In this document: positions 6,814 to 51,957 of the stretch, in pieces
How the letters are laid out: each line of letters opens with the position of its first letter
Position numbering within the stretch: position 1 is the first letter of the stretch
Source of the DNA: SAR116 cluster bacterium AG-426-B08
GTDB lineage: Bacteria > Pseudomonadota > Alphaproteobacteria > Puniceispirillales > Marisalimonadaceae
Direction of reading: 5' to 3'
Assembly (NCBI GenBank): GCA_003213175.1
Contig: QCNN01000002.1
Coordinates: 57,092-121,091, forward strand
Length of the DNA stretch: 64,000 nucleotides
The notes under the pieces: model-generated
What the model saw: the letters and a program-made list of their open reading frames with translations, nothing else
What the model was told of the DNA's origin: nothing
Databases searched by the model: none
Made by a program: the position numbers and the translations under genes

Positions 6814-8415
6814 TTACATTCTAAATAAACCAAACTTACTATCTTTAATTTTTTGAGACATTGAAATTTCTATGCTGAGAGCAAGAATTCTTCTAGTTTC
6901 AATTGGATCTATGATACCATCATCCCACAATCTTGCAGATGCAAATAGAGGATGCGATTGTTCTTCAAATTGATCAACAATATTTTGGTGAAACTTTTTT
7001 TCAACTTTATCATTCCACGTTTGACCTTTTTTTCTAGCATTTATTTTTTTTAATTCAGATAAAACATTTGCAGCTTGTTCACCCCCCATAACAGAAATTT
7101 TAGAACTTGGCCAAGTCCAGAGAAATTTTGGATTATATGCTCGTCCACACATTCCATAGTTTCCTGCTCCAAAACTCCCACCTACAATTAGAGTTATTTT
7201 TGGACATTTAGTATTTGAAACAGCATTAATTAATTTAGCACCATTTTTTGCAATTCCGCCATGTTCTGCACTTTTACCTACCATAAAACCTGTAATATTT
7301 TGTATAAATATAATTGGTATTTTTCTCTGACTACATAACTGTATAAAATGTGCTCCTTTGAGTGCACTCTCAGAAAACAAAACTCCATTATTTGCAATTA
7401 TTCCACAATTATTTCCATGAATAGTTGCAAAACCAGTAATCAAAGTTTTACCATACTCTTTTTTAAATTCTTCCATTTTTGAACCATCAACTATTCTCAT
7501 AATAATCTCTTTTATTTCAAAAGGCTTTCTTAAATCTTGTGGGACAATGCCAAGCAAATCATTTTGATCATAAATTGGTTCTTCAAAATTATTATTTTTA
7601 GTTTTTGATTTAAGGTTTAAGTTTAAAATGCAATTTCTTGCAATTTCTAACGCATCATTATCATCATTAGCAAGATAGTCTGCAACTCCTGAAATTTTTG
7701 AATGAACTTCACCTCCTCCTAATTCTTCAGGAGTTGTTTTTTCTCCTATAGCTGCCTTAACTAATGGAGGTCCAGCTAAAAAAATTGTACCTTGATTTTT
7801 AATAATTATAGTTTCATCTGACATTGCTGGTACGTATGCCCCTCCTGCTGTACAACTTCCCATAACCACTGCTATTTGAGGTACATTCTTTGAAGACATA
7901 ATTGCTTGATTGTAAAAAATTCTTCCAAAATGCTCTTTATCTGGGAAAACTTCATCTTGGTTTGGTAGGTTGGCGCCTCCAGAGTCAACTAAATAAATAC
8001 ATGGTAGATTATTATCAATTGCAATTTCTTGAGCTCTAAGGTGTTTTTTTACAGTTATAGGATAATATGTGCCACCTTTAACAGTAAAGTCATTACAAAT
8101 AACCATAACATTAAAGTTATGGATTTTACCAATGCCTGCAATTATTCCTCCACCAGGACATTCATTGTTATAAAGATTATATCCAGCTGATAAACCAATT
8201 TCCAGGAAATCTGAGTTTTGGTCTAAAAGTTTTGTAATTCTCATTCTGGGAAGAAGTTTTACATTTTTTGTAATCTTATTGTTAAACTGCTTTACGCCAC
8301 CTCTAAATGAGTTTTTATTAACTTCTTTGATTTTTTCAATATTTGATAACATATAATTTTTATTATCATTAAAGTCATTGCTATTAATATTTATTGACGT
8401 TTTTAATATTGTCAT
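6814..8415 (-). CDS. mccB: Methylcrotonyl-CoA carboxylase-type carboxyltransferase (beta) subunit
   Basis: LPCIYLVDSGGANLPNQDEVFPDKEHFGRIFYNQA, IIFIQNITGFMVG, GAGNYGMCGRAY; ATG at 8415 preferred over the longer ORF start. Confidence 0.9.
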   Translation of the reverse strand: MTILKTSININSNDFNDNKNYMLSNIEKIKEVNKNSFRGGVKQFNNKITKNVKLLPRMRITKLLDQNSDFLEIGLSAGYNLYNNECPGGGIIAGIGKIHNFNVMVICNDFTVKGGTYYPITVKKHLRAQEIAIDNNLPCIYLVDSGGANLPNQDEVFPDKEHFGRIFYNQAIMSSKNVPQIAVVMGSCTAGGAYVPAMSDETIIIKNQGTIFLAGPPLVKAAIGEKTTPEELGGGEVHSKISGVADYLANDDNDALEIARNCILNLNLKSKTKNNNFEEPIYDQNDLLGIVPQDLRKPFEIKEIIMRIVDGSKMEEFKKEYGKTLITGFATIHGNNCGIIANNGVLFSESALKGAHFIQLCSQRKIPIIFIQNITGFMVGKSAEHGGIAKNGAKLINAVSNTKCPKITLIVGGSFGAGNYGMCGRAYNPKFLWTWPSSKISVMGGEQAANVLSELKKINARKKGQTWNDKVEKKFHQNIVDQFEEQSHPLFASARLWDDGIIDPIETRRILALSIEISMSQKIKDSKFGLFRM

Positions 8416-8416
8416 A

Positions 8417-9583
8417 CTATTTCGTTTCCAAAAATAATTCTCTTCCAATAAGCATTCTTCTTATTTCAGAAGTACCCGCTCCAATTTCATAAAGTTTTGC
8501 ATCTCTTAATAATCTCTCAACAGAATAATCTTTTGTATAACCATTTCCACCCAGTGATTGAATAGCTTCTAATGTTAACTGCGTTGCTTTTTCAGCGGCA
8601 TATAAAATACAACCAGCTGCATCTTTTCTGGTTGTCTCTCCCCTATCACAAGCTGATGCCACCGCATAAACATAGGATCTGCATGCGTTTGTGGTAGTAT
8701 ACATATCAGCAATTTTTCCTTGCATTAATTGAAATTCACCAATTGATTTTCCAAATTGTTTTCTTTCATGAACGTAAGGAACTACTTCATCTAATGCTGC
8801 GGCCATAATACCTAGAGGCCCAGCTGCAAGGACAACTCTCTCATAATCCAATCCACTCATTAAAATAGCGGTCCCTTCACCAGGATTACCGAGAACATTT
8901 TCTTCTGGTACTGCACAATTTTCAAATATTAATTCAGATGTATTAGAACCCCTCATTCCTAATTTGTTTATTTTTTTTCCGCATGAAAAGCCATCCATAC
9001 TCTTTTCTATTAAGAACGCTGTGATTCCTTTTGAACCAATATTTGCATCAGTTTTTGCGTACACTACAGCTATGTCAGCATCAGGTCCATTTGTGATCCA
9101 CATTTTAGAACCATTAAGTAAGTAGGTTTTATTACCCTGTTTTTCTGCATACAAAGTCATTGACACAACATCTGAGCCTGAACCGACTTCGCTCATTGCA
9201 AGAGCACCAATTTTTTCTCCGCTACAAAGATCTGGTAAATATTTTTCTTTTTGGTATTTATTTCCATTTCGATTAATCTGGTTAACACATAAATTCGAAA
9301 AAGCGCCATATGACAGTCCAACAGATGCACTTGCACGACTAATTTCTTCTAGGGCCACACAGTGAGCTAAATAACCCATGCCACTTCCACCAAATGATGT
9401 CTCGGCAGTAATTCCTAATAACCCAAGGGAACCAAATCTTTTCCACAAATGATTTGGAAATTCATTAGTTTCGTCTATTTGTTTTGCTAAAGGTGCTATT
9501 TCAGATTGTGCAAATTTACGAACATTTTTTTGAAGAATTTTAATTTCTTCGTCAAATCCAAAATCCATAGATTTTTCAAACAT
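8417..9583 (-). CDS. ivd: Isovaleryl-CoA dehydrogenase
   Basis: [63 protein letters not shown]. Confidence 0.9.
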
Positions 9584-9597
9584 GATAAATTTCCTTA

Positions 9598-10047
9598 TTA
9601 ATTTCCTAGAGCTCTCTTTTTGGCCTCGGAACTCTCAGTACCAGATACATGAAGCAAACCACAAATTCGCCATATCAAATTTGCCTCATACTCATCTACT
9701 TTCCCATCTGATAAAATAATTTCCCACAACATTTCTATAACTGAAATTCTTTCATCATGATCCATACTATCAAGAATGACCTTAATATCTGAGTAAATTT
9801 CAATTTTTTCATCACTTTTATGAAGAACAAAATCAATAGATTTTTCAGCTTTTTGAGGATTTAGATGAAATTTAGTAATAAGTATTTTTTTAATTAAATC
9901 TATTTCGTCGTTACTAACAATTCCATCAATTTTACTTGCTTCAATTAAAAGGGATAAGACGGCAAAAATATCTTCATCCAAATATTCTTGATTTTCATCT
10001 TCATTTATTTTTGCTGTGTCAAAAAAGTTTTTTATATTTTTAAACAT
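9598..10047 (-). CDS. TerB family tellurite resistance-like protein
   Basis: Two acidic helical repeats: [20 protein letters not shown] / [22 protein letters not shown]. Confidence 0.75.
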
Positions 10048-10218
10048 ATTTCCTCATCAATTTAATATATTCATTTTTGTTCTGCCTAAATAAAATATAA
10101 AACAAATCTGAAAATAAACAAAAGCTTAATAATTTTTTATTGTTTTTAGTTATAAGTATTTATGATACCATCTCTTTTAAATTTTTAAATGGGGGCATCG
10201 AGAAATCGTTGAAAAAAA

Positions 10219-11640
10219 ATGGCAGGAGACGAGTTTCTAAATTCAATTGAAACAAATTTTAAAAAAGCTATAAATTGTCTGCAAAAATCGGAAGGTGGTA
10301 AATTCATTACTGAGGATTTAGCAAATCAAATTATGATGGCTAATGCTACTTACGTAGTTCGTTTTGGGGTAAGATTAAGAAATTCAATATACACATTTAC
10401 AGGTTACAGATCTGTTCATTCTGACCATTTTGAACCTGTTAAAGGTGGTATTAGATATGATATGGCTGTTAATCAAGAAGAAGTTGAAGCTTTAGCAGCG
10501 CTAATGACCTATAAATGTTCTCTTGTTGAAGTCCCTTTTGGTGGTTCTAAAGGTGGATTAATAATTAACATTCGTGATTGGAACGAAGAAGAGATGGAAA
10601 GAATTACAAGAAGATTTACGCAAGAGCTAGCGAAACGTGATTTAATCCATCCATCTCAAAATGTACCTGCACCAGATGTTGGTACTGGGGAACGTGAAAT
10701 GGCTTGGATGGCAGATGAATATAGAAGATTAAATCCAACTGATCTCAATGCTTGGGCATGTGTTACTGGTAAGCCTGTTAATAAAGGAGGCATATCAGGT
10801 AGGACTGAGGCAACTGGTAGAGGAGTAGAATATGCTTTGAAAGCTTTTTTTGACAATCATGAAGATGTTAAAAAAACAGGGTTAACCTCTGGATTAGTGG
10901 GTAAAAGAGTAATAGTACAAGGTTTAGGTAATGTCGGTTATCATGCCGCATTATTTTTATCGAAGGAAGATGAATGTTTGATTACACATGTTATTGAAAG
11001 AGATGGTTCCATAGTAAACAAGGATGGAATTGATATCGAAGATCTGAAAAACCATATTGTTAAAAATGGAAGTGTAAAGGGCTATCAAGGTTATACATCA
11101 AAAGGTTCAGAAATTTTAGAAGAAGATGCAGATATTTTAATCCCAGCTGCTATGGAACTAGTAATTAATAAAGAAAATGCTAACAGAATTAAAACTCCAC
11201 TTATTATTGAGGCGGCTAACGGGCCCGTTTCCTCTGAGGCAGATGAAATACTTAATAAAAAAGGAGTGGTAATTATACCCGACCTCTATGCAAATGCTGG
11301 TGGTGTTACAGTAAGTTACTTTGAATGGATTAAAAACTTGAGTAGAATAAGGTTAGGTAGACTTCAAAGGCGCGCTCAAGAAAACCAAGTCAACATTCTT
11401 GTTGAGGCAATGGAAAAAATGACAGGAACAGACTTTCCAGAAGGATATAAAGAAAAGGCAATTAAAGGATCATCAGAACTTGATTTAGTTAGGTCAGGTT
11501 TAGAAGATACTATGAGAAACTCTTATCAAGTAATCAGTGATGTTTGGAACAACGACGAAAATGCTAAAGATTTAAGAACAGCTGCAATGATGGTTGCAAT
11601 TAAGAGAGTAGCTCAAAGTTATACTTCGCTTGGAATGTAA
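10219..11640 (+). CDS. gdhA: Glu/Leu/Phe/Val dehydrogenase (glutamate dehydrogenase)
   Basis: PVKGGIRYDMAVNQEEVEALAALMTYKCSLVEVPFGGSKGG, ASNGPVSxEAD-like, VIVQGLGNVG. Confidence 0.92.
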   Translation: MAGDEFLNSIETNFKKAINCLQKSEGGKFITEDLANQIMMANATYVVRFGVRLRNSIYTFTGYRSVHSDHFEPVKGGIRYDMAVNQEEVEALAALMTYKCSLVEVPFGGSKGGLIINIRDWNEEEMERITRRFTQELAKRDLIHPSQNVPAPDVGTGEREMAWMADEYRRLNPTDLNAWACVTGKPVNKGGISGRTEATGRGVEYALKAFFDNHEDVKKTGLTSGLVGKRVIVQGLGNVGYHAALFLSKEDECLITHVIERDGSIVNKDGIDIEDLKNHIVKNGSVKGYQGYTSKGSEILEEDADILIPAAMELVINKENANRIKTPLIIEAANGPVSSEADEILNKKGVVIIPDLYANAGGVTVSYFEWIKNLSRIRLGRLQRRAQENQVNILVEAMEKMTGTDFPEGYKEKAIKGSSELDLVRSGLEDTMRNSYQVISDVWNNDENAKDLRTAAMMVAIKRVAQSYTSLGM

Positions 11641-11673
11641 ACAAAGGCAGTTATAATCGTAACTGCCTTTGTT
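11640..11673. terminator. Bidirectional hairpin terminator between convergent gdhA and amt
   Basis: Perfect 14-bp stem AACAAAGGCAGTTA / TAACTGCCTTTGTT with 6-nt loop. Confidence 0.8.
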
Positions 11674-11686
11674 AAGAGGGAGGAAT

Positions 11687-12970
11687 TTATTTTCTAAAAT
11701 CTGGATAAGCTTCCATGCCAATTTCACTTGCATCTACACCTTCCATCTCTTGCTCTGGGGTAACTCTAATTCCTATAATCATTTTGATAATGTACCATAC
11801 AACTCCCGAAGCAATTACTGTGAATAGTCCGATAGCAAAAATACCATAGAGTTGAGCTCCTAATGATGCTTCTGAATTCGAAAACACAACTGCGATTGTT
11901 CCCCATATTCCTGCAAATAAGTGAACAGGTATTGCACCAACTACATCATCAATTTTAAATTTATCCAAAAGTGGAATGGCAATAACAACAATTAAGCCAC
12001 CTACAGCACCAATAAATATTGCTAACATTGGGCTTGGTGCAAGAGGTTCAGCTGTAATAGCAACTAATCCACCCAAAGCACCATTTAATGCCATAGTTAA
12101 ATCTGTTTTTTTGTAATATAACATCGTAATTATAATTGCAACAACGACACCACCTGCAGCGGCTAAATTTGTATTTATGTAAATATTAGAAATATCATTT
12201 ACATCAGCAGCACTTCCCATTGCAAGTTGTGAACCACCATTAAAACCAAACCATCCAAACCAAAGTAAAAAAGTACCCAGTGTAGCCAATGGTAAGTTTG
12301 AACCTGGCATTGGTTTCACACTTCCATCATCAGCGTATTTACCTTTTCTCGCACCTAGTATTAGACAACCAGTTAAAGCTGCCCATCCTCCAACACCATG
12401 AACTATAGAAGAACCAGCAAAATCTAGAAAACCTGCACCAGATAAAAACCCAGCACCCCATGACCAAGAACCTTGTATTGGATATATGAAACCAGTTAAA
12501 ATAACTACGAATATTAAAAAGCTCGAAAGTTTAACTCTTTCAGCTACTGCTCCACTGACTATAGATGCGGCCGTAGCACAAAACACCATCTGAAAGAACC
12601 AATCAGACCCAGCACTATAACCGTCATCAACTGCTACTTCTCCAGGACTCCATATGTTAAAAGAACCAATCCATCCAGTATTTTCAGTCACTCCATCGTA
12701 CATCAAGTTGTATCCTACAAATGCAAACATAAGTCCAGCTATAGAATAAAGTCCAATATTTTTAGCACATTGTACCACAGCATTTTTGGCCCTTACTAGT
12801 CCAGTCTCTAACATACAGAAACCAGCGGCCATTAACATTACTAAAAATCCATGAACCAGAAATGAAAATGAATTAAATATATAAGCCACTTCTTTATCAA
12901 CCTCTGCATTTGCTGCATTAATTGAAAAAAATATTAATAAAGAAGTTAACGTAAGTTTTAAAATATTCAT
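11687..12970 (-). CDS. amt: Ammonium transporter
   Basis: Signal peptide, AFCMLETGLVRAKN, GSWSWGAGFL, LWFGWFGFNGGSQLA, VHLFAGIWGTI. Confidence 0.93.
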   Translation of the reverse strand: MNILKLTLTSLLIFFSINAANAEVDKEVAYIFNSFSFLVHGFLVMLMAAGFCMLETGLVRAKNAVVQCAKNIGLYSIAGLMFAFVGYNLMYDGVTENTGWIGSFNIWSPGEVAVDDGYSAGSDWFFQMVFCATAASIVSGAVAERVKLSSFLIFVVILTGFIYPIQGSWSWGAGFLSGAGFLDFAGSSIVHGVGGWAALTGCLILGARKGKYADDGSVKPMPGSNLPLATLGTFLLWFGWFGFNGGSQLAMGSAADVNDISNIYINTNLAAAGGVVVAIIITMLYYKKTDLTMALNGALGGLVAITAEPLAPSPMLAIFIGAVGGLIVVIAIPLLDKFKIDDVVGAIPVHLFAGIWGTIAVVFSNSEASLGAQLYGIFAIGLFTVIASGVVWYIIKMIIGIRVTPEQEMEGVDASEIGMEAYPDFRK

Positions 12971-13125
12971 AAAACTCTCCTTAATAAAAATTGAAATTAT
13001 TAATTAATGCAAATAGTAGTTAAATATGACTTTTATTTTTTGATGACAGTGAGAAAATTGTGGATGATTAAAAAATAAACAAAAATTTTAAAGTTAAAAT
13101 TGATTTGTCTATTTTTTATGCAATT

Positions 13126-14664
13126 CTATAATTTTAAAATTTCTTCAATATTCTTACAAATTTGATTTTTATGATCTTTAACTGTTTGTTTTAATGTACC
13201 TAAGTCTTTTAGATTAAGATATGAGACTAAATATTTTGAAACTTTGTTAGGCAAGTTTCTTGGTTTATCCATTGAAAAAGTTATATTTACAAATTGGTCT
13301 AGGATAAAATAAAATAATTTAACTTTTTTCAAAAACAATTTTTTTACATCTAAATTTTCAATCTTTCGATAGATTTTTTCTCTAATATAAAAATACTCTA
13401 AAAATTCTATATCTCTTTGACCTCCTAAAGAATATTTAGTTTCATACCAATTAAGTAGATTTTTACTTTTTCGGTTTATCAAATTCTTTGCTGTAAAGTT
13501 TTTGTCTCCACCTCTCATGGTTATGATTTCTTTTTTTAATTCAGGAAGATTTATTTCTCTTTTTTTAATATCATTTATTTTTGAGTTTAGTGAGTTTTGA
13601 AATTTAGAATTGTTTAAGACTAATTCACTCTTTAAGAATGCTATCTTTTGCCAGGCGAATGAGTGATCTTTTTGAAAACTTATAAAATCTGACATTGTGC
13701 AAGCTAAATCACTTTGTGTGTTAGAGGGTGTTAATTTTGTGTCTACTTCATACATGAAACCTTCTGCAGTTTGCGAAGAAAGTATATTAATAATTTTTTT
13801 TGAAAAACGGTTGTAAAAAGTTTCATATTCTTTTTTGTTTTTAAAATTTTTGTTTACATCAGGAAAAATAAAAACCAAATCTAAATCAGAGTTTGAAGTC
13901 ATCGTATTATTTGCTAACCTGCCATAGGCTAAAACGGCAAAATCATCATAAAAACTTTTTCTTAAATTATTTTGCTTTAAAAATAAGTAATGAGCAATTT
14001 CTATAACTTTTTCTATGATTGATCTAGCTAAAAGAGAAAATTCATATGAAGCACTTTCAATTCTCAATTCATTTTTTATTACAGAAACAATTATCTGAAA
14101 TTTAAGTTTTCTATGAACTTTTCTTAAGTTATTAAAAATATTTTCTTCTACATCATTTTGGTATTGTATTTTATTTAATTCATTTTTATAGATTGAAATA
14201 TTACCATTTAATCTAATTGCAAAATATGGGTCTAATATTTCTAATAATTTTTCATCTTTTGCTAAGAAATTTGTTATGTGGCCAGAAAAAGATAAAACTT
14301 CTATTAACTTGTCGTATATAAAAGTTTTAGTTGAGAGGTTTTCTAAATACTGAAAGTTTGGACTAATTTCATTTAAAAATCTTAATAGTTGATACGTAGC
14401 TTGTTTGGGATGGTTTTGATTTAATATCAAAGGTAATATTTGATCTAAAAATTTAGAAATTAGTGAAATATAATTTTTCTTTATTTTAATGTTAATTTTA
14501 TCATCAAAATAGTTAAGAAAAATCTTCTTTATTGCATTTTCGCTTAATTTTTTTGAATCAATTAAGTATGAAATAAAACGAATCACAGCTTTATTATTTT
14601 CACCTGCTGTTTCATTAATAGTAGAGAGATTTTCAGGAAAATAGTTTTTTTTGTAATATATCAA
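13126..14664 (-). CDS. glnE: GlnE-like adenylyltransferase, single catalytic domain (C-terminal/adenylylation-type half)
   Basis: YGRLANNTMTSNSDLDLVFIFPD; AEGFMYEVDTKLTPS; SLGGQRDIEFLEYF; 512 aa versus roughly 950 aa for typical GlnE. Confidence 0.75.
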   Translation of the reverse strand: MIYYKKNYFPENLSTINETAGENNKAVIRFISYLIDSKKLSENAIKKIFLNYFDDKINIKIKKNYISLISKFLDQILPLILNQNHPKQATYQLLRFLNEISPNFQYLENLSTKTFIYDKLIEVLSFSGHITNFLAKDEKLLEILDPYFAIRLNGNISIYKNELNKIQYQNDVEENIFNNLRKVHRKLKFQIIVSVIKNELRIESASYEFSLLARSIIEKVIEIAHYLFLKQNNLRKSFYDDFAVLAYGRLANNTMTSNSDLDLVFIFPDVNKNFKNKKEYETFYNRFSKKIINILSSQTAEGFMYEVDTKLTPSNTQSDLACTMSDFISFQKDHSFAWQKIAFLKSELVLNNSKFQNSLNSKINDIKKREINLPELKKEIITMRGGDKNFTAKNLINRKSKNLLNWYETKYSLGGQRDIEFLEYFYIREKIYRKIENLDVKKLFLKKVKLFYFILDQFVNITFSMDKPRNLPNKVSKYLVSYLNLKDLGTLKQTVKDHKNQICKNIEEILKL

Positions 14665-42671: not shown

Positions 42672-42761
42672 GGAGAGGTGGCCGAGTGGTTTAAGGCGCA
42701 CGCTTGGAAAGCGTGTATAGTAGCAATACTATCGAGGGTTCGAATCCCTCTCTCTCCGCCA
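42672..42761 (+). tRNA. tRNA-Ser(GGA), integration target
   Basis: GGAGAGGUGGCCGAGUGG..., anticodon stem-loop CACGC-UUGGAAA-GCGUG, variable arm, GGUUCGAAUCC, encoded CCA. Confidence 0.96.
42745..42761. repeat. attL of element A (tRNA-Ser 3' end)
   Basis: TCCCTCTCTCTCCGCCA, identical to 48865-48881. Confidence 0.9.
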
Positions 42762-43831: not shown

Positions 43832-44041
43832 CTATAAAGTATATTTTCTCTTATACTCAGCTTGTATTTCAGGGGTGATAGTAATGTTTCTGCACTCAGA
43901 TGCAGGACCATATCTTGTCCCTCTTAAACCTCTCATCTTGTTACTCTTATGACCTCCCCAACGATTGTTGGAGAAGCCACGAAGGTAATAAGGCATATCT
44001 GATAATTTCTGATTATAGTCTCTATGCTGTTTCTTTTTCAT
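43832..44041 (-). CDS. Small basic hypothetical protein, overlapping the HTH_8 gene
   Basis: 69 aa, 20-bp overlap with the upstream ORF suggests translational coupling. Confidence 0.5.
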   Translation of the reverse strand: MKKKQHRDYNQKLSDMPYYLRGFSNNRWGGHKSNKMRGLRGTRYGPASECRNITITPEIQAEYKRKYTL

Positions 44042-44237
44042 CTTTAATGACCTTTTTGTATACTTTAGGCATCCCTAGATGTTTCATTTTCCTGTGTAAG
44101 CCAGAATAATGCATACCTAATGTTTCAGCAGACTTACGAAGGCTATAATCATTATCCTGTAAGACATCATTGATGAACATAATCTCAAAGTGTTCTTTAG
44201 CTTCTTTAAGACTATTATGTGAATATAATCTACCCAT
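44022..44237 (-). CDS. Stand-alone Fis-type HTH (HTH_8-like) protein
   Basis: LRKSAETLGMHYSGLHRKMKHLGM matches the Fis/NtrC C-terminal HTH pattern. Confidence 0.7.
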   Translation of the reverse strand: MGRLYSHNSLKEAKEHFEIMFINDVLQDNDYSLRKSAETLGMHYSGLHRKMKHLGMPKVYKKVIKDEKETA

Positions 44238-45752: not shown

Positions 45753-46853
45753 ATGAAAAAACTTTTATTTACAATATTCTTTATTTCTTTTTTAGTAAAA
45801 CCGTCTATTGCAAATTCTCAAAATTTTATATGTGAACAAATTGGTTATGCTTGCGAAGAAGTTAAATATGAAGATTTAATTATAAGAGAGAAGATTTATT
45901 ATAAAAAGTTTTCTGATAAGCCATTTACTGGTTTTGCTAATGGAAAATGTTGTAAGAGAAAACTTGAGAGTTATGAAAAGCTAACAATAAAAAAAGATTT
46001 TGAATATAAATTAATTAAAGGAAAAATATTAAAAGGAAAAAGAGATGGAGAATGGTTGAAGTTTAACGAGGATGGTTCTCTTTTAGAGAAAATATCATAT
46101 AAATTTGGAAAACTTGATGGTAAATACGAGTTACATTCTCAAAAAATGATTATAAAAGGCTCAAATAAAAACGGGAAAAAAGAAGGTTTATGGAAAACAT
46201 ATAAATCAAATAAACTTTTTTTAGAAGCTAATTTTCAGAACGATAAAAAGAATGGTTTTTACAGAACATTTTATGAAAGTGGAAAATTACAAGCTGCAGC
46301 TCATTACAAAGATAATCTTCTAGACGGAGAAATGAAAAAATATCATAAGAATGGGAAATTATCTTTTACTAAATTTTTTACGAGAGGTGTTTTGAATGAT
46401 GGTGAGTGGTTAAGCTATCATGAAAATGGAAAACTATTTAAAAAAGAAATTATGTCCGATGGAAAAAAAAATGGTAGGTGGGAAACTTTTTATGAAGATG
46501 GAAAACCATGGAATATCATTATTTACAAAAATGATAAAAAAAATGGTTTAGAAAAGTGGTTTAAAGATGACGGTAGAATTGATTTTGAAAGAAACTTCAA
46601 AGATGGAAAATTGCACGGCATAAGTTTGTGGTATTATGTAAGTGGAAAGTTGCGAAAGACAGAAAATTTTAAGAATGGAAAACCAGACGGTAGTTATAAA
46701 AGTTTTTATGAGGATGGTACAACTAAATACATCTTAAATCATAAAAATGGAAATCGTCATGGTACTTCAATATGGTATCACCCAGATGGTACTTTAAGAG
46801 CAAAAAGAATCTACGAAAATGGTAAAACTGTTTCATATAAAGAATATAAGTAA
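45753..46853 (+). CDS. Secreted MORN-like repeat protein, YwqK-family antitoxin type
   Basis: Signal peptide; repeats such as GKKNGRWETFYEDGKPWN, NGKLFKKEIMSDGKKNG. Confidence 0.75.
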   Translation: MKKLLFTIFFISFLVKPSIANSQNFICEQIGYACEEVKYEDLIIREKIYYKKFSDKPFTGFANGKCCKRKLESYEKLTIKKDFEYKLIKGKILKGKRDGEWLKFNEDGSLLEKISYKFGKLDGKYELHSQKMIIKGSNKNGKKEGLWKTYKSNKLFLEANFQNDKKNGFYRTFYESGKLQAAAHYKDNLLDGEMKKYHKNGKLSFTKFFTRGVLNDGEWLSYHENGKLFKKEIMSDGKKNGRWETFYEDGKPWNIIIYKNDKKNGLEKWFKDDGRIDFERNFKDGKLHGISLWYYVSGKLRKTENFKNGKPDGSYKSFYEDGTTKYILNHKNGNRHGTSIWYHPDGTLRAKRIYENGKTVSYKEYK

Positions 46854-47429: not shown

Positions 47430-48773
47430 TTAGATTTTTGGAATACTTTCAACTATTTCAATTAATTTGGAAATATCCTGTTTTGCAAAATAGCTTTTTC
47501 CAGCTTGTGTTCTTCCAATGTTGGATTTCTTATGACCTGTAATGTCTGAAAATTCTAATTCACTAAATCTATTTTGAAGTAAAAGAGTTATAAACCCATG
47601 TCTAAATGAATGATGAACATAAGTTTGTTTTTCATGACTTAATTCAAATTGTTTAAGCATTTTATCTTTAAGTCTTCCAAATCGTTTTCCAAGAGCTGTA
47701 GAGGAAGGAGATTTCCATGGTAAAAGTTCAATTTTCTTTAGTTCAGAGTGTAAGGGAATAATTCTTTTAGAAGATTCAGTTTTACCTTTTTCTTCTGCAA
47801 CTCTAAAAATGCGAATATTATTAATCCTATCTAATTTGGCTGTAAAAATTTCATCTAATCTCATTCCTGTATAGTAGCTAACATAAATTAACTGTGTCAG
47901 TTCCTTATCCTTTGATGATAGTTCTAAAAGTTTTTTAATCATTTCAGTTGTAAATGGTTTTCTATTAACTCTTTTTTTAAAGTTTGTAAGTCTGTGTCCT
48001 TTAAAGGGATTAGGAGAGTTATCTAGGAAACCTTGTTTAGCTGCATATGAATAAACAGCTGCAAGATAGCTCATATCGTTTGAGAACGTTGTTGAAGCTC
48101 TGTTTTCTTCTCTAGCAAATTTAACGTAATCACTTACTATTTTTGGAGTAATTAATCTTAGTTCTATATCTGCAACTTCTCTGTATTCTAAAAACCTTTT
48201 AGTTGCATTTTTAACTTTATTTTGAGTTTTATTTGGTCTTCCTTCTGATTTGAGTTCATCCATATACTTGTTAGAGATGACTGTAATACCTACTGGATAA
48301 GGGTGAGGTTTATCAAAAAATTTTGCTTTTCTTTTCTCTTGTTCTCTTTCTAAAGCAATTAAATTATTATGAGCATTACTGAACTCTTTTTCATCAACAA
48401 CAACTGTTTCTCCAGGTATACGAAAAGTATCTGTGGTATTATGAATTAGTTCTAGAATAACTTCTTTTTCTTCTTCTAATTGCTCATCAGTAAGAGTTTG
48501 AAAATTCTCTACACCTTTCCAATATGCTTCAGCCCCTACAAGAAGACGATAAGGTTTTGGATTTTCTAAAATCTGCAACTCCTTAAGTCTTTTATTTGCT
48601 CTTTCATAAGCAAGATTAAAATCTGAAGTTCTTAAAGTTTCTTTAAAATTTTTTTTACTAGTTGGTAAGTGAGATAAGTTAGGCAACATTCTCATCCAAT
48701 TTTTTATATGAAACTGAAGATAGTAATTATTACCATTTTTTGATATAAAGTTTTTGTGGTATTTTCTAGCCAT
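47430..48773 (-). CDS. Tyrosine recombinase / phage-type integrase of element A (ATG at 48773 preferred)
   Basis: YYTGMRLDEIF, HHSFRHGFITLLL, TGHKKSN...AGKSYF catalytic pattern. Confidence 0.9.
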   Translation of the reverse strand: MARKYHKNFISKNGNNYYLQFHIKNWMRMLPNLSHLPTSKKNFKETLRTSDFNLAYERANKRLKELQILENPKPYRLLVGAEAYWKGVENFQTLTDEQLEEEKEVILELIHNTTDTFRIPGETVVVDEKEFSNAHNNLIALEREQEKRKAKFFDKPHPYPVGITVISNKYMDELKSEGRPNKTQNKVKNATKRFLEYREVADIELRLITPKIVSDYVKFAREENRASTTFSNDMSYLAAVYSYAAKQGFLDNSPNPFKGHRLTNFKKRVNRKPFTTEMIKKLLELSSKDKELTQLIYVSYYTGMRLDEIFTAKLDRINNIRIFRVAEEKGKTESSKRIIPLHSELKKIELLPWKSPSSTALGKRFGRLKDKMLKQFELSHEKQTYVHHSFRHGFITLLLQNRFSELEFSDITGHKKSNIGRTQAGKSYFAKQDISKLIEIVESIPKI

Positions 48774-48783
48774 TTTGTCAAAT

Positions 48784-48801
48784 GTACCCAGAATGTACCC
48801 A
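48784..48801. repeat. Putative integrase arm-type sites, right end of element A
   Basis: GTACCCAgaatGTACCCA, 11-bp period, just upstream of the int start. Confidence 0.75.
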
Positions 48802-48864
48802 ATTGACAACCTTATTTTTGAATACTATAGTTATACTGTGGAGATTTTAGGAATAAGAAGAGAT

Positions 48865-48881
48865 TCCCTCTCTCTCCGCCA
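48865..48881. repeat. Junction att site between elements A and B
   Basis: TCCCTCTCTCTCCGCCA, identical to tRNA-Ser 3' end. Confidence 0.9.
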
Positions 48882-48993
48882 TGTACCTAACTATGTTATG
48901 TCATGCTATGTCATAACTCTAAGCTGTGCTTGGTTTTAATTGACGAAACCTGATTAAGTTATTTCATTATAAATCATCTTTAACCAACCCAAC

Positions 48994-49013
48994 TTGTGGA
49001 CAGAGTTGTAGAC
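48994..49013. repeat. Putative arm-type sites, left end of element B
   Basis: TTGTGGACagagTTGTAGAC, 12-bp period; matches 51854-51873. Confidence 0.75.
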
Positions 49014-49023
49014 AGGAGATGAC

Positions 49024-49200
49024 ATGAAAAAATTAAATGCAAAGCAATTATCAATTTTAACAAAAGGTAAATACCATGATGGAAATGGACTTTATATTTC
49101 AATTTCAAGTCCAGGAAAAGGTAGATGGAGTTTTCGTTATTCCATTAATAAAAAATCAAGAGAAATGGGTTTAGGAAGTTTTCCAGATATTTTGTTTTAA
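49024..49200 (+). pseudogene. Truncated P4-type integrase, N-terminal DUF4102 arm-binding domain only
   Basis: MKKLNAKQLSILTKGKYHDGNGLYISISSPGKGRWSFRYSINKKSREMGLGSFPDILF*; no catalytic domain follows. Confidence 0.85.
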
Positions 49201-49336
49201 TCCATTTTAAAATAAACGAAAATAAACAAAAAAAAATAAAATATTAGCGAATTTTCTTTTATTTTATTTTACAGGTATCAAATTTGACATTAAAATTGAA
49301 AATCATTAAAATTTTTGAAGATTAAACATTTGAATT

Positions 49337-49468
49337 ATGGCTGAAAAAAAACAAGAAATATTTATAAAATATCCTAAGTTATCAAACTATTTCATAGGTG
49401 TAGTAGACCAATTAAAAAATTTTAGCATTGCAATAAAAACTGATAATAATATACCTCATAATGATTAA
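49337..49468 (+). CDS. Possible 43-aa small ORF
   Basis: MAEKKQEIFIKYPKLSNYFIGVVDQLKNFSIAIKTDNNIPHND; below the ORF track threshold. Confidence 0.25.
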   Translation: MAEKKQEIFIKYPKLSNYFIGVVDQLKNFSIAIKTDNNIPHND

Positions 49469-49489
49469 ATTTTTATGTTATATTAGAAA

Positions 49490-50077
49490 TTGATGATTAT
49501 GAATAATGTTGATGAATATAAAAATGTGTCAGTAAATGTTGTACGTATATTAAATCTAATAAAAAATAAAGATTACACTAAAAAAGAATTACATACTTTT
49601 TTTGAGAATATAAACAACGAATATTCTAAAGGTAAAGTTACTGACTATGAATTTGAAATTCTAATTCAAGAATTAGAAAAGAGAGTTAGGATTACTCAAC
49701 CCCGTTTATCAAAAATTCTATTTGGACCAAAAGATGATAAGGTTAGAACATCATTAAGTAAATTTTTAGATGAATTGAAGACTACTTTTGATTTTTCTAA
49801 TAATAATGTTGGAAGCCATGTCAAAACTGGTGGTTCAATGATTAATGGTACTAAATACATTGACGTTTACATATCTTATAAAAATAAAGATAAATGGCAC
49901 TGCTCTTTTGCGTTTGTACAAGATCAAGCAAATACAAATCTTTACATAATGACAAGAAAGTATCAAGGAGGAATGATGAACAAAGAAAGTGTATCTGAAA
50001 TCATTTATGAAATTGAAGATCTAGATAAAGCTAAGTTGGGATTTATAGAAAATTTAGAAGCAATAATAGATAAATAA
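49490..50077 (+). CDS. Hypothetical protein, element B cargo
   Basis: 195 aa ORF, no recognised domain. Confidence 0.6.
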   Translation: MMIMNNVDEYKNVSVNVVRILNLIKNKDYTKKELHTFFENINNEYSKGKVTDYEFEILIQELEKRVRITQPRLSKILFGPKDDKVRTSLSKFLDELKTTFDFSNNNVGSHVKTGGSMINGTKYIDVYISYKNKDKWHCSFAFVQDQANTNLYIMTRKYQGGMMNKESVSEIIYEIEDLDKAKLGFIENLEAIIDK

Positions 50078-50099
50078 ATTACAGGTTGGTGAAGAAATA

Positions 50100-50480
50100 T
50101 TGAGTTGGTTAGAGATAAGTGAAAAAGCGTTTAATACTTACTTCGAAAACTTTGTTAAAAATAAAGACCATAATATTGCTCAAAAATCGACTAATAAATT
50201 TATCGAATTATATGCGAAGAAAGTGGGATTTAAGTTTACAAACCTGTCATCAAATAATGTTTCCCAAAAAATTCTTATAATTATTTTTAATCAGTTTGCT
50301 CAAAGAATGCGTTATCTTAAAGAAGATAAAAACTACATTGATAATGGAGAATTTTTATGGCCAATGCATTCCTGGTTATCAAATCACTGTTATGCAAATT
50401 TGCAATATTATGGAACGGATCAATTTAAAGTAATACAAAAATATATTGATGAAGAATTAACAGAATATTTACCAGATTAA
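50100..50480 (+). CDS. Orphan small protein, 'LWPMHxW' family copy 1
   Basis: Pairs with the 51303-51719 product: KAFNxYF, FAQRMR, GEFLWPMHSW, LPD; TTG start. Confidence 0.6.
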   Translation: MSWLEISEKAFNTYFENFVKNKDHNIAQKSTNKFIELYAKKVGFKFTNLSSNNVSQKILIIIFNQFAQRMRYLKEDKNYIDNGEFLWPMHSWLSNHCYANLQYYGTDQFKVIQKYIDEELTEYLPD

Positions 50481-50483
50481 CTT

Positions 50484-50503
50484 GAGGAGGTTGTCTTCGC
50501 CAA
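50484..50503. repeat. Internal att-like sequence
   Basis: GAGGAGGTTGTCTTCGCCAA versus GAGGAGGTTCTCTCCGCCAA at about 51930-51949 (18/20 by eye). Confidence 0.5.
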
Positions 50504-50714
50504 TAAGATAAATAATCTTTAGTCATATTTTTTGACAAAGGGTAAAGATGATATCTCTTAAAAAAATAGAGAAAAAACTTAAATAACATTTAGATTACAA
50601 AGAATTCAATTTTGGTATTATTTAAAGAAGAAGAAAATCTTCTCATTATATTAATTACAATTCATGTAGATTTAAAATAATAAATAAATTTAACTTTTAT
50701 CAAAATCTAATTTT

Positions 50715-51224
50715 TTATTGAATATTATGTTTTAAAATATTTACTTCTTTATATCTATCAAAAACACTTTTATATTTATTCCATCCAAATGGCATTTTAT
50801 CTTTCAAATTGTTTTTGGTAAGCTTATCGTCTTCTTCCTTTGTTATCACGCCCAATTTATAATAATTGATTAAAAAATTTTCAATGTCTTTTTCATGTTG
50901 AAATTTTTCTTCAAATAAAAGTTTGTAAATCACTGAAACTGGCAGAGAGTGCTCTTTTATCAATCTAGCATTCATATTTTTATTAATGACTTCAAAAGCA
51001 TTTTTAGAAATAAAATGCATGCTTAGCAATGCATTTTTTGATTTATGAGGATTGGGATTATTAAACCATTTAGGTCTATTATTTTTGGATAGAAAAGGCC
51101 CTCTTTTATAATATGCAAACCAGTTGTCAATAAAAGTTCTTAAGAGATGTTTATCATTATTATATGATTTTATGTAAATCTTAATATGCGTAAGGTAAGA
51201 ATTTTTTAGTTCTACACAATCCAA
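50715..51224 (-). CDS. Hypothetical protein, element B cargo
   Basis: 169 aa ORF, no recognised domain. Confidence 0.55.
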   Translation of the reverse strand: MDCVELKNSYLTHIKIYIKSYNNDKHLLRTFIDNWFAYYKRGPFLSKNNRPKWFNNPNPHKSKNALLSMHFISKNAFEVINKNMNARLIKEHSLPVSVIYKLLFEEKFQHEKDIENFLINYYKLGVITKEEDDKLTKNNLKDKMPFGWNKYKSVFDRYKEVNILKHNIQ

Positions 51225-51302
51225 TTTATTCTACATTTTATAGATGAATTAAAACCATAATTTAGAAACCCTCTAGATTTTTATCTAATATAAGTTGAAA
51301 TT

Positions 51303-51719
51303 TCAATCATCATCTGGGAGTAAATCTGGTAATTTATTACTAATAAAATCGTCTAAATCTTTAAAATATTCTTCATCATTGTGATGTTCTTTAGCCTCAT
51401 AAAGTTTATCAATAATCCAAGTATGCATTGGCCATAATAATTCACCTGATACTTTGTAACCAACTTCTTCATGAATATCTCGCATTTTTTCGGCAAAATT
51501 TTGAATAACAATCTTTACTTTTTCTTTATCTAAATCAAATTCCCAATTGGTTTCAATATCAACACCAATATTTTCCATAGCATTTGCAATCTCTCCATCA
51601 GCTAATTCTTGAGACTCTTCATGATCTTCTGATTTTCTATACCAGTTAAAATATTGGTTAAAAGCTCTTTTTCCAACTTCTTCCCAATTAACGTCAGAAT
51701 TTTCATTATTCTTACTCAT
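51303..51719 (-). CDS. Orphan small acidic protein, 'LWPMHxW' family copy 2
   Basis: KRAFNQYF, FAEKMRDIHEEVGYKVSGELLWPMHTW, LPDLLPDDD. Confidence 0.65.
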   Translation of the reverse strand: MSKNNENSDVNWEEVGKRAFNQYFNWYRKSEDHEESQELADGEIANAMENIGVDIETNWEFDLDKEKVKIVIQNFAEKMRDIHEEVGYKVSGELLWPMHTWIIDKLYEAKEHHNDEEYFKDLDDFISNKLPDLLPDDD

Positions 51720-51853
51720 TTTATTTACCTCACTATTATTTTCTTCTGAATAGTCGTTTTTAATAGTTTTATTGTATCACAAATTATTTATCGTGGAAAT
51801 TAAATAATCTGCCAGAGAATTTCAAGAACAAAACTTAAATAAATAGAAATTAA

Positions 51854-51873
51854 TTGTAGACTAAATTGTAGAC
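51854..51873. repeat. Putative arm-type sites, right end of element B
   Basis: TTGTAGACtaaaTTGTAGAC, 12-bp period. Confidence 0.75.
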
Positions 51874-51937
51874 TGAAAACTTAATAGTCTATAAAATATA
51901 AGTAAATCAGATGATTAAAATGGAATAACGAGGAGGT

Positions 51938-51948
51938 TCTCTCCGCCA
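51938..51948. repeat. Distal partial att site of element B
   Basis: TCTCTCCGCCA, matches the last 11 nt of tRNA-Ser including CCA. Confidence 0.75.
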
Positions 51949-51957
51949 AAAAACATT

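Follow-up and report, generated by a model that had tools for sequence, protein, structure and literature searches.

Two small, homologous proteins of a family undescribed in every library tested are encoded in SAR116 cluster bacterium AG-426-B08, within a 3,067-bp insert behind a tRNA-Ser gene (positions 48882-51948 of the 64,000 nucleotides analysed here, hereafter the window, to which coordinates refer unless another locus is named). The insert carries both copies of the family and is not found at the matching site in a genome of the same genus (G002), so that the pair lies in a mobile context; it probably has an accessory or immunity-like function in conflicts with phages or other mobile elements. 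The proteins themselves are undescribed orphans, and the type of element that carries them is familiar.

The two open reading frames are present as described in an earlier note made from the sequence alone: P0001 at 50100-50480 on the plus strand (126 aa, TTG start, with no in-frame ATG upstream of it in the open frame) and P0002 at 51303-51719 on the minus strand (138 aa, ATG start). Their kinship, seen by eye in that note, is beyond doubt in the alignment, and the two are homologous: BLASTP found 41 of 128 positions identical (32%; 59% similar; E=8e-23), and the local alignment score of 195 compares with a mean of 31 for 2000 shuffles (sd 5.4, maximum 64; Z about 30). The sequence blocks named in the note as common to both are among the invariant columns, which include (in P0002 numbering) W12, E14, AFN19-21, YF23-24, DH32-33, FA75-76, MR79-80, E84, Y88, GE92-93, LWPMH 95-99, W101 and LPD134-136. 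The two genes differ at 70 first, 42 second and 62 third codon positions, the second being the most conserved, and they use different codons at 12 of the 31 identical residues (methionine and tryptophan left out). The constraint on the second codon position together with the differing codons at identical residues points to conservation at the protein level.

The note had called both products small and acidic and had both of them ending in LPD. Strong acidity holds for P0002 (36 D/E vs 15 K/R; pI 4.4), whereas P0001 is neutral (15 D/E vs 15 K/R; pI 6.8), and the C-terminus of P0002 reads LPDDD. The AlphaFold models, which drew on the two family sequences, have five helices in P0002 (moderate confidence; pLDDT 76, pTM 0.72) and five in the same order in P0001 (low confidence; pLDDT 65), and the family is probably all-helical. 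The HEPN motif RX4-6H is not present, as 19 residues separate the conserved R80 from H99 (by eye on the alignment), and no active-site signature was recognised in a comparison that comprised these two sequences only.

Relatives of the pair were sought in profile libraries, genomes, sequence collections and structure databases. Neither protein gave a meaningful match in Pfam, PHROGs or NCBIfam (P0001 none at all), and the best profile matches of P0002, Top6b_C (0.015) and NDK (0.021), lay under the curated cut-offs and were rejected. There were no families at E<=1 among the defence models of PADLOC-DB 2.0.0, no match among PDB sequences and, for P0002, no tblastn match in phages and plasmids. 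Queried against its own genome (about 52% complete), P0002 had just two matches, itself and P0001 (E=3.7e-18). A profile built from the pair detected no relative in 136 genomes from the order, 386 from the class, 399 from the phylum and 203 from a second order of Alphaproteobacteria, sets with some overlap; it returned the window's own genes and two weak matches, one in a gene of G006 that reads as tilS-like from its sequence and one inside an 888-codon frame of G367, both regarded as chance. The motif ExLWPMHxW occurred at seven loci in viral and GTDB contigs, none of which proved a true relative once the frames were read. Scanning these collections with P0001, with P0002 and with both together did not yield a confirmed relative either; such scans require exact short peptide patterns, which are weak for distant relatives, and could miss a distant family elsewhere. 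Foldseek with the P0002 model gave no match below E=0.5 in the PDB (weak ferritin matches with TM about 0.25 are noise) and none below E=1 in BFVD. The earlier impression that no known domain is present is thus upheld by sequence libraries and fold search alike.

The boundaries of the insert are given by copies of an attachment site derived from the tRNA. The 3' end of the intact tRNA-Ser(GGA) gene (42672-42761, +; ARAGORN), CTCTCTCCGCCA, forms the attachment site S0 of a tandem island, and its core CTCTCCGCCA recurs at S1 (48872-48881, +), the junction with the resident element A at which the insert starts, and within S3 (51930-51952, +; GAGGAGGTTCTCTCCGCCAAAAA; core at 51939-51948) at the right end of the insert. 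In G002 the left 40 nt through S1 are identical and then run directly into the sequence from window position 51949 onward; blastn places the junction at 48881/51938, and exactly 48882-51948 is missing. The flank on the integrase side joins a chromosomal tauE-like gene in G002 at the same tRNA-Ser 3'-end sequence. An intact tRNA at one end (S0), displaced 3' fragments that mark the other end or ends (S1, S3) and a shorter site in a relative are all as in a tRNA island, and the proposal in the earlier note of a new family within one mobile element is supported in this respect. Presence in one of two genomes and absence from the other would alone leave the direction of the event unset, and site-specific loss would likewise imply a mobile unit; the attachment-like ends and an integrase remnant favour insertion over a precise loss in G002.

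That remnant (49024-49200, +; Arm-DNA-bind_3, PF13356, E=6.9e-10) keeps 58 codons from the start of a P4-type integrase gene, which encode the arm-binding domain, and then has a stop, whereas the tyrosine-type integrase of element A (47430-48809, -; Phage_int_SAM_5 2e-9, Phage_integrase 8e-7, phrog_1 3e-31) is intact and has about 96% nucleotide identity in G002. The simplest reading is that the insert (element B) is the decayed form of an element that had integrated behind element A, in tandem with it. Its layout is integrase remnant, orfA, P0001, S2, orfB (-) and P0002 (-), with a GC content of 25-26% compared to about 30% in the window. S2 (50484-50506, +; GAGGAGGTTGTCTTCGCCAATAA) is a degenerate attachment-like repeat directly past the stop codon of P0001; it is identical to S3 at 20 of 23 nt (87%), and the pattern of S2 and S3 occurs at these two sites only in the genome (control 0). 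The repeat suggests that S2 may be the joint of two accreted units, orfA with P0001 and orfB with P0002. A promoter scan performed no better than shuffles. Within element A, a gene for a Fis-type HTH protein and one for a 69-aa protein (43832-44237, -; about 92% nucleotide identity with G002) look, together with the integrase, like the core of the element, which also encodes a MORN_2 repeat protein with a signal-peptide-like start (45753-46853, +; eight stretches matching Pfam MORN_2).

The gene upstream of P0001, orfA (P0003; 49499-50077, +; its ATG start is in line with the starts of its relatives), belongs to an orphan family beside defence-type genes. It shares a strand with P0001 across a 22-bp gap, and the two likely form an operon. 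No library tested matched the orfA family (a sub-threshold Colicin_Pyocin profile match was rejected), and most members have the motif VKxGGxMIxG...YISYKN. Relatives were identified at four outside loci (L029:7207-7764, L035:9192-9770, L027:7917-8486 and L039:9892-10446), in G059 (85%), G002 (37%), G430 and a Ruegeria plasmid; an orfA-like match in G013 (E=4.5e-4), which lies within a frame of 472 codons, was left uncounted. Reading of the neighbours found restriction- or defence-type genes around all four. In G002 the same integrase, at the same tRNA-Ser, is associated with other cargo than in the window, namely a C5 methyltransferase, an NgoFVII-type PLD nuclease, a DndB/DGQHR protein, the orfA relative and an RHH-like gene (L029, contig C24 of G002, 7207-13595), of which the methyltransferase and the nuclease form a type II R-M-like pair. 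The relative in G059 adjoins a PD-T4-3-like protein, a HEPN-like protein and a UvrD/GajB-like helicase, that in G430 an HNH nuclease, two C5 methyltransferase-like genes (one of them profile-scanned), DUF4420 and Z1, and on the Ruegeria plasmid GmrSD_N lies directly downstream. We therefore regard orfA as a candidate for an uncharacterised defence-associated family. The nucleotide similarity to G059 spans orfA alone (49485-50078, 89%), which means that orfA travels without P0001; as no relative of P0001 is detectable beside orfA at any of the four outside loci either, orfA and P0001 are no obligate pair.

The gene orfB (P0004; 50715-51224, -; 169 aa), downstream of P0002 and on its strand, has no match in Pfam or PHROGs. 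A distant relative was detected in G1045 (E=4.2e-5 in the genome search and 4e-6 pairwise; motif EHxxP..MPxxW), and the relative at L040:1480-1932, in a different alphaproteobacterium, is flanked by pnp- and fabI-like genes, with ...RY also common by eye. The G1045 relative gave one weak match, a gene on a Desulfohalobium plasmid that adjoins a site-specific integrase gene.

Our tentative explanation, to which we give a little less than an even chance, is that the pair was acquired horizontally, as cargo of a tandem tRNA island now in decay, and that both proteins serve in conflicts as small helical partners of the genes beside them. The family members would have arrived with an integrative element that inserted site-specifically behind the resident tRNA-Ser element, retained its attachment sites while the greater part of its P4-type integrase disappeared, and that itself may consist of the two units accreted at S2. 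Each copy would be produced together with the adjoining orphan gene and act as its small helical binding partner, in the manner of an immunity protein, an antitoxin or an adaptor, and both units would act in phage or mobile-element conflict like other cargo at the same tRNA site. The partner and conflict parts draw on the position of orfA and P0001, close together on one strand (P0002 and orfB likewise share a strand), on the defence-type surroundings of the orfA relatives and of the tRNA-Ser site, and on the lack of a recognised catalytic signature in P0001 and P0002. Against them stands that no relative of P0001 was detected beside other orfA genes and that the neighbours of the two copies are unrelated to each other. 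The conflict role put forward in the earlier note is plausible from context (the R-M-like and DndB-like genes at the G002 site, the orfA family among restriction and defence genes). In a bolder and rather unlikely version, P0001 and P0002 would found a new small-protein family typical of mini-cassettes borne at tRNA genes. Its members, helical adaptors or immunity proteins paralogous to one another, would each be matched with an orphan effector of its own (orfA or orfB), and the resulting modular anti-phage units would be mobilised by the integrase of a neighbour.

Attachment-like sites lie near both copies (the stop codon of P0001 is a few bases from S2, and some 210 bp separate the start of P0002 from S3) in an element that is minimal, as might be expected if the proteins served the element itself, for example in recombination directionality, copy control or satellite maintenance, and not host defence. 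We consider this unlikely, because the profile libraries gave no match of either protein to an HTH or other DNA-binding domain, no copy of the family was detected in G002, where element A is resident, and P0002 is strongly acidic, whereas typical excisionases are small and basic. There is similarly a small chance that the proteins are stand-alone effectors that act against phages or mobile elements without a partner, for example helical nucleases or metal-binding enzymes that use the conserved D-H, R, E and H: polar residues are among the most conserved (D32-H33, R80, E84, E93, H99) and the model consists of helices, yet neither the canonical HEPN motif nor any other catalytic motif was recognised, and Foldseek gave no match in the PDB or BFVD below the E-values stated above. 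Least probable to us are neutral passengers without present function, adrift in a decaying island. The truncated integrase, the AT-rich insert and the absence of relatives elsewhere would agree with such a fate, but two intact reading frames at 32% identity, with conservation at the level of motifs and a constraint on second codon positions, argue for selection during their divergence.

Among known systems, the immunity proteins of the colicin/pyocin Im type are comparable, being small and helical. The two copies are likewise small and predicted to be helical, and P0002 is acidic; unlike in these systems, neither P0001 nor P0002 has a Colicin_Pyocin sequence match, no fold match was obtained, and no recognised bacteriocin nuclease adjoins them. 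As a small mobile element of a marine bacterium the insert resembles tycheposons, which are tRNA-associated, and PICMI-type minimal marine satellites, but replication, packaging and capsid genes were not seen in it and membership is not claimed. In architecture the locus resembles Islander-type tRNA islands and tandem arrays, with a tyrosine integrase, ends marked by displaced fragments of the tRNA 3' end, accretion in tandem at a single tRNA and cargo that varies between relatives (PMC4383910). The Islander rule expects an integrase in every member of an array (PMC4383910), so that the insert, whose integrase is truncated to the arm-binding domain, would not count as a separate tandem member and, in contrast to such members, would need help in trans.

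The precise comparison with an empty site makes the tRNA-Ser locus a clean place to seek uncharacterised conflict genes. With five loci (the insert and the four outside), orfA is arguably a better candidate for a new defence gene than the pair, and orfA together with the tRNA-Ser hot spot is an interesting open end, more so than P0001 and P0002 alone. If true, the modular-partner version would add a minimal, integrase-poor type of cassette.
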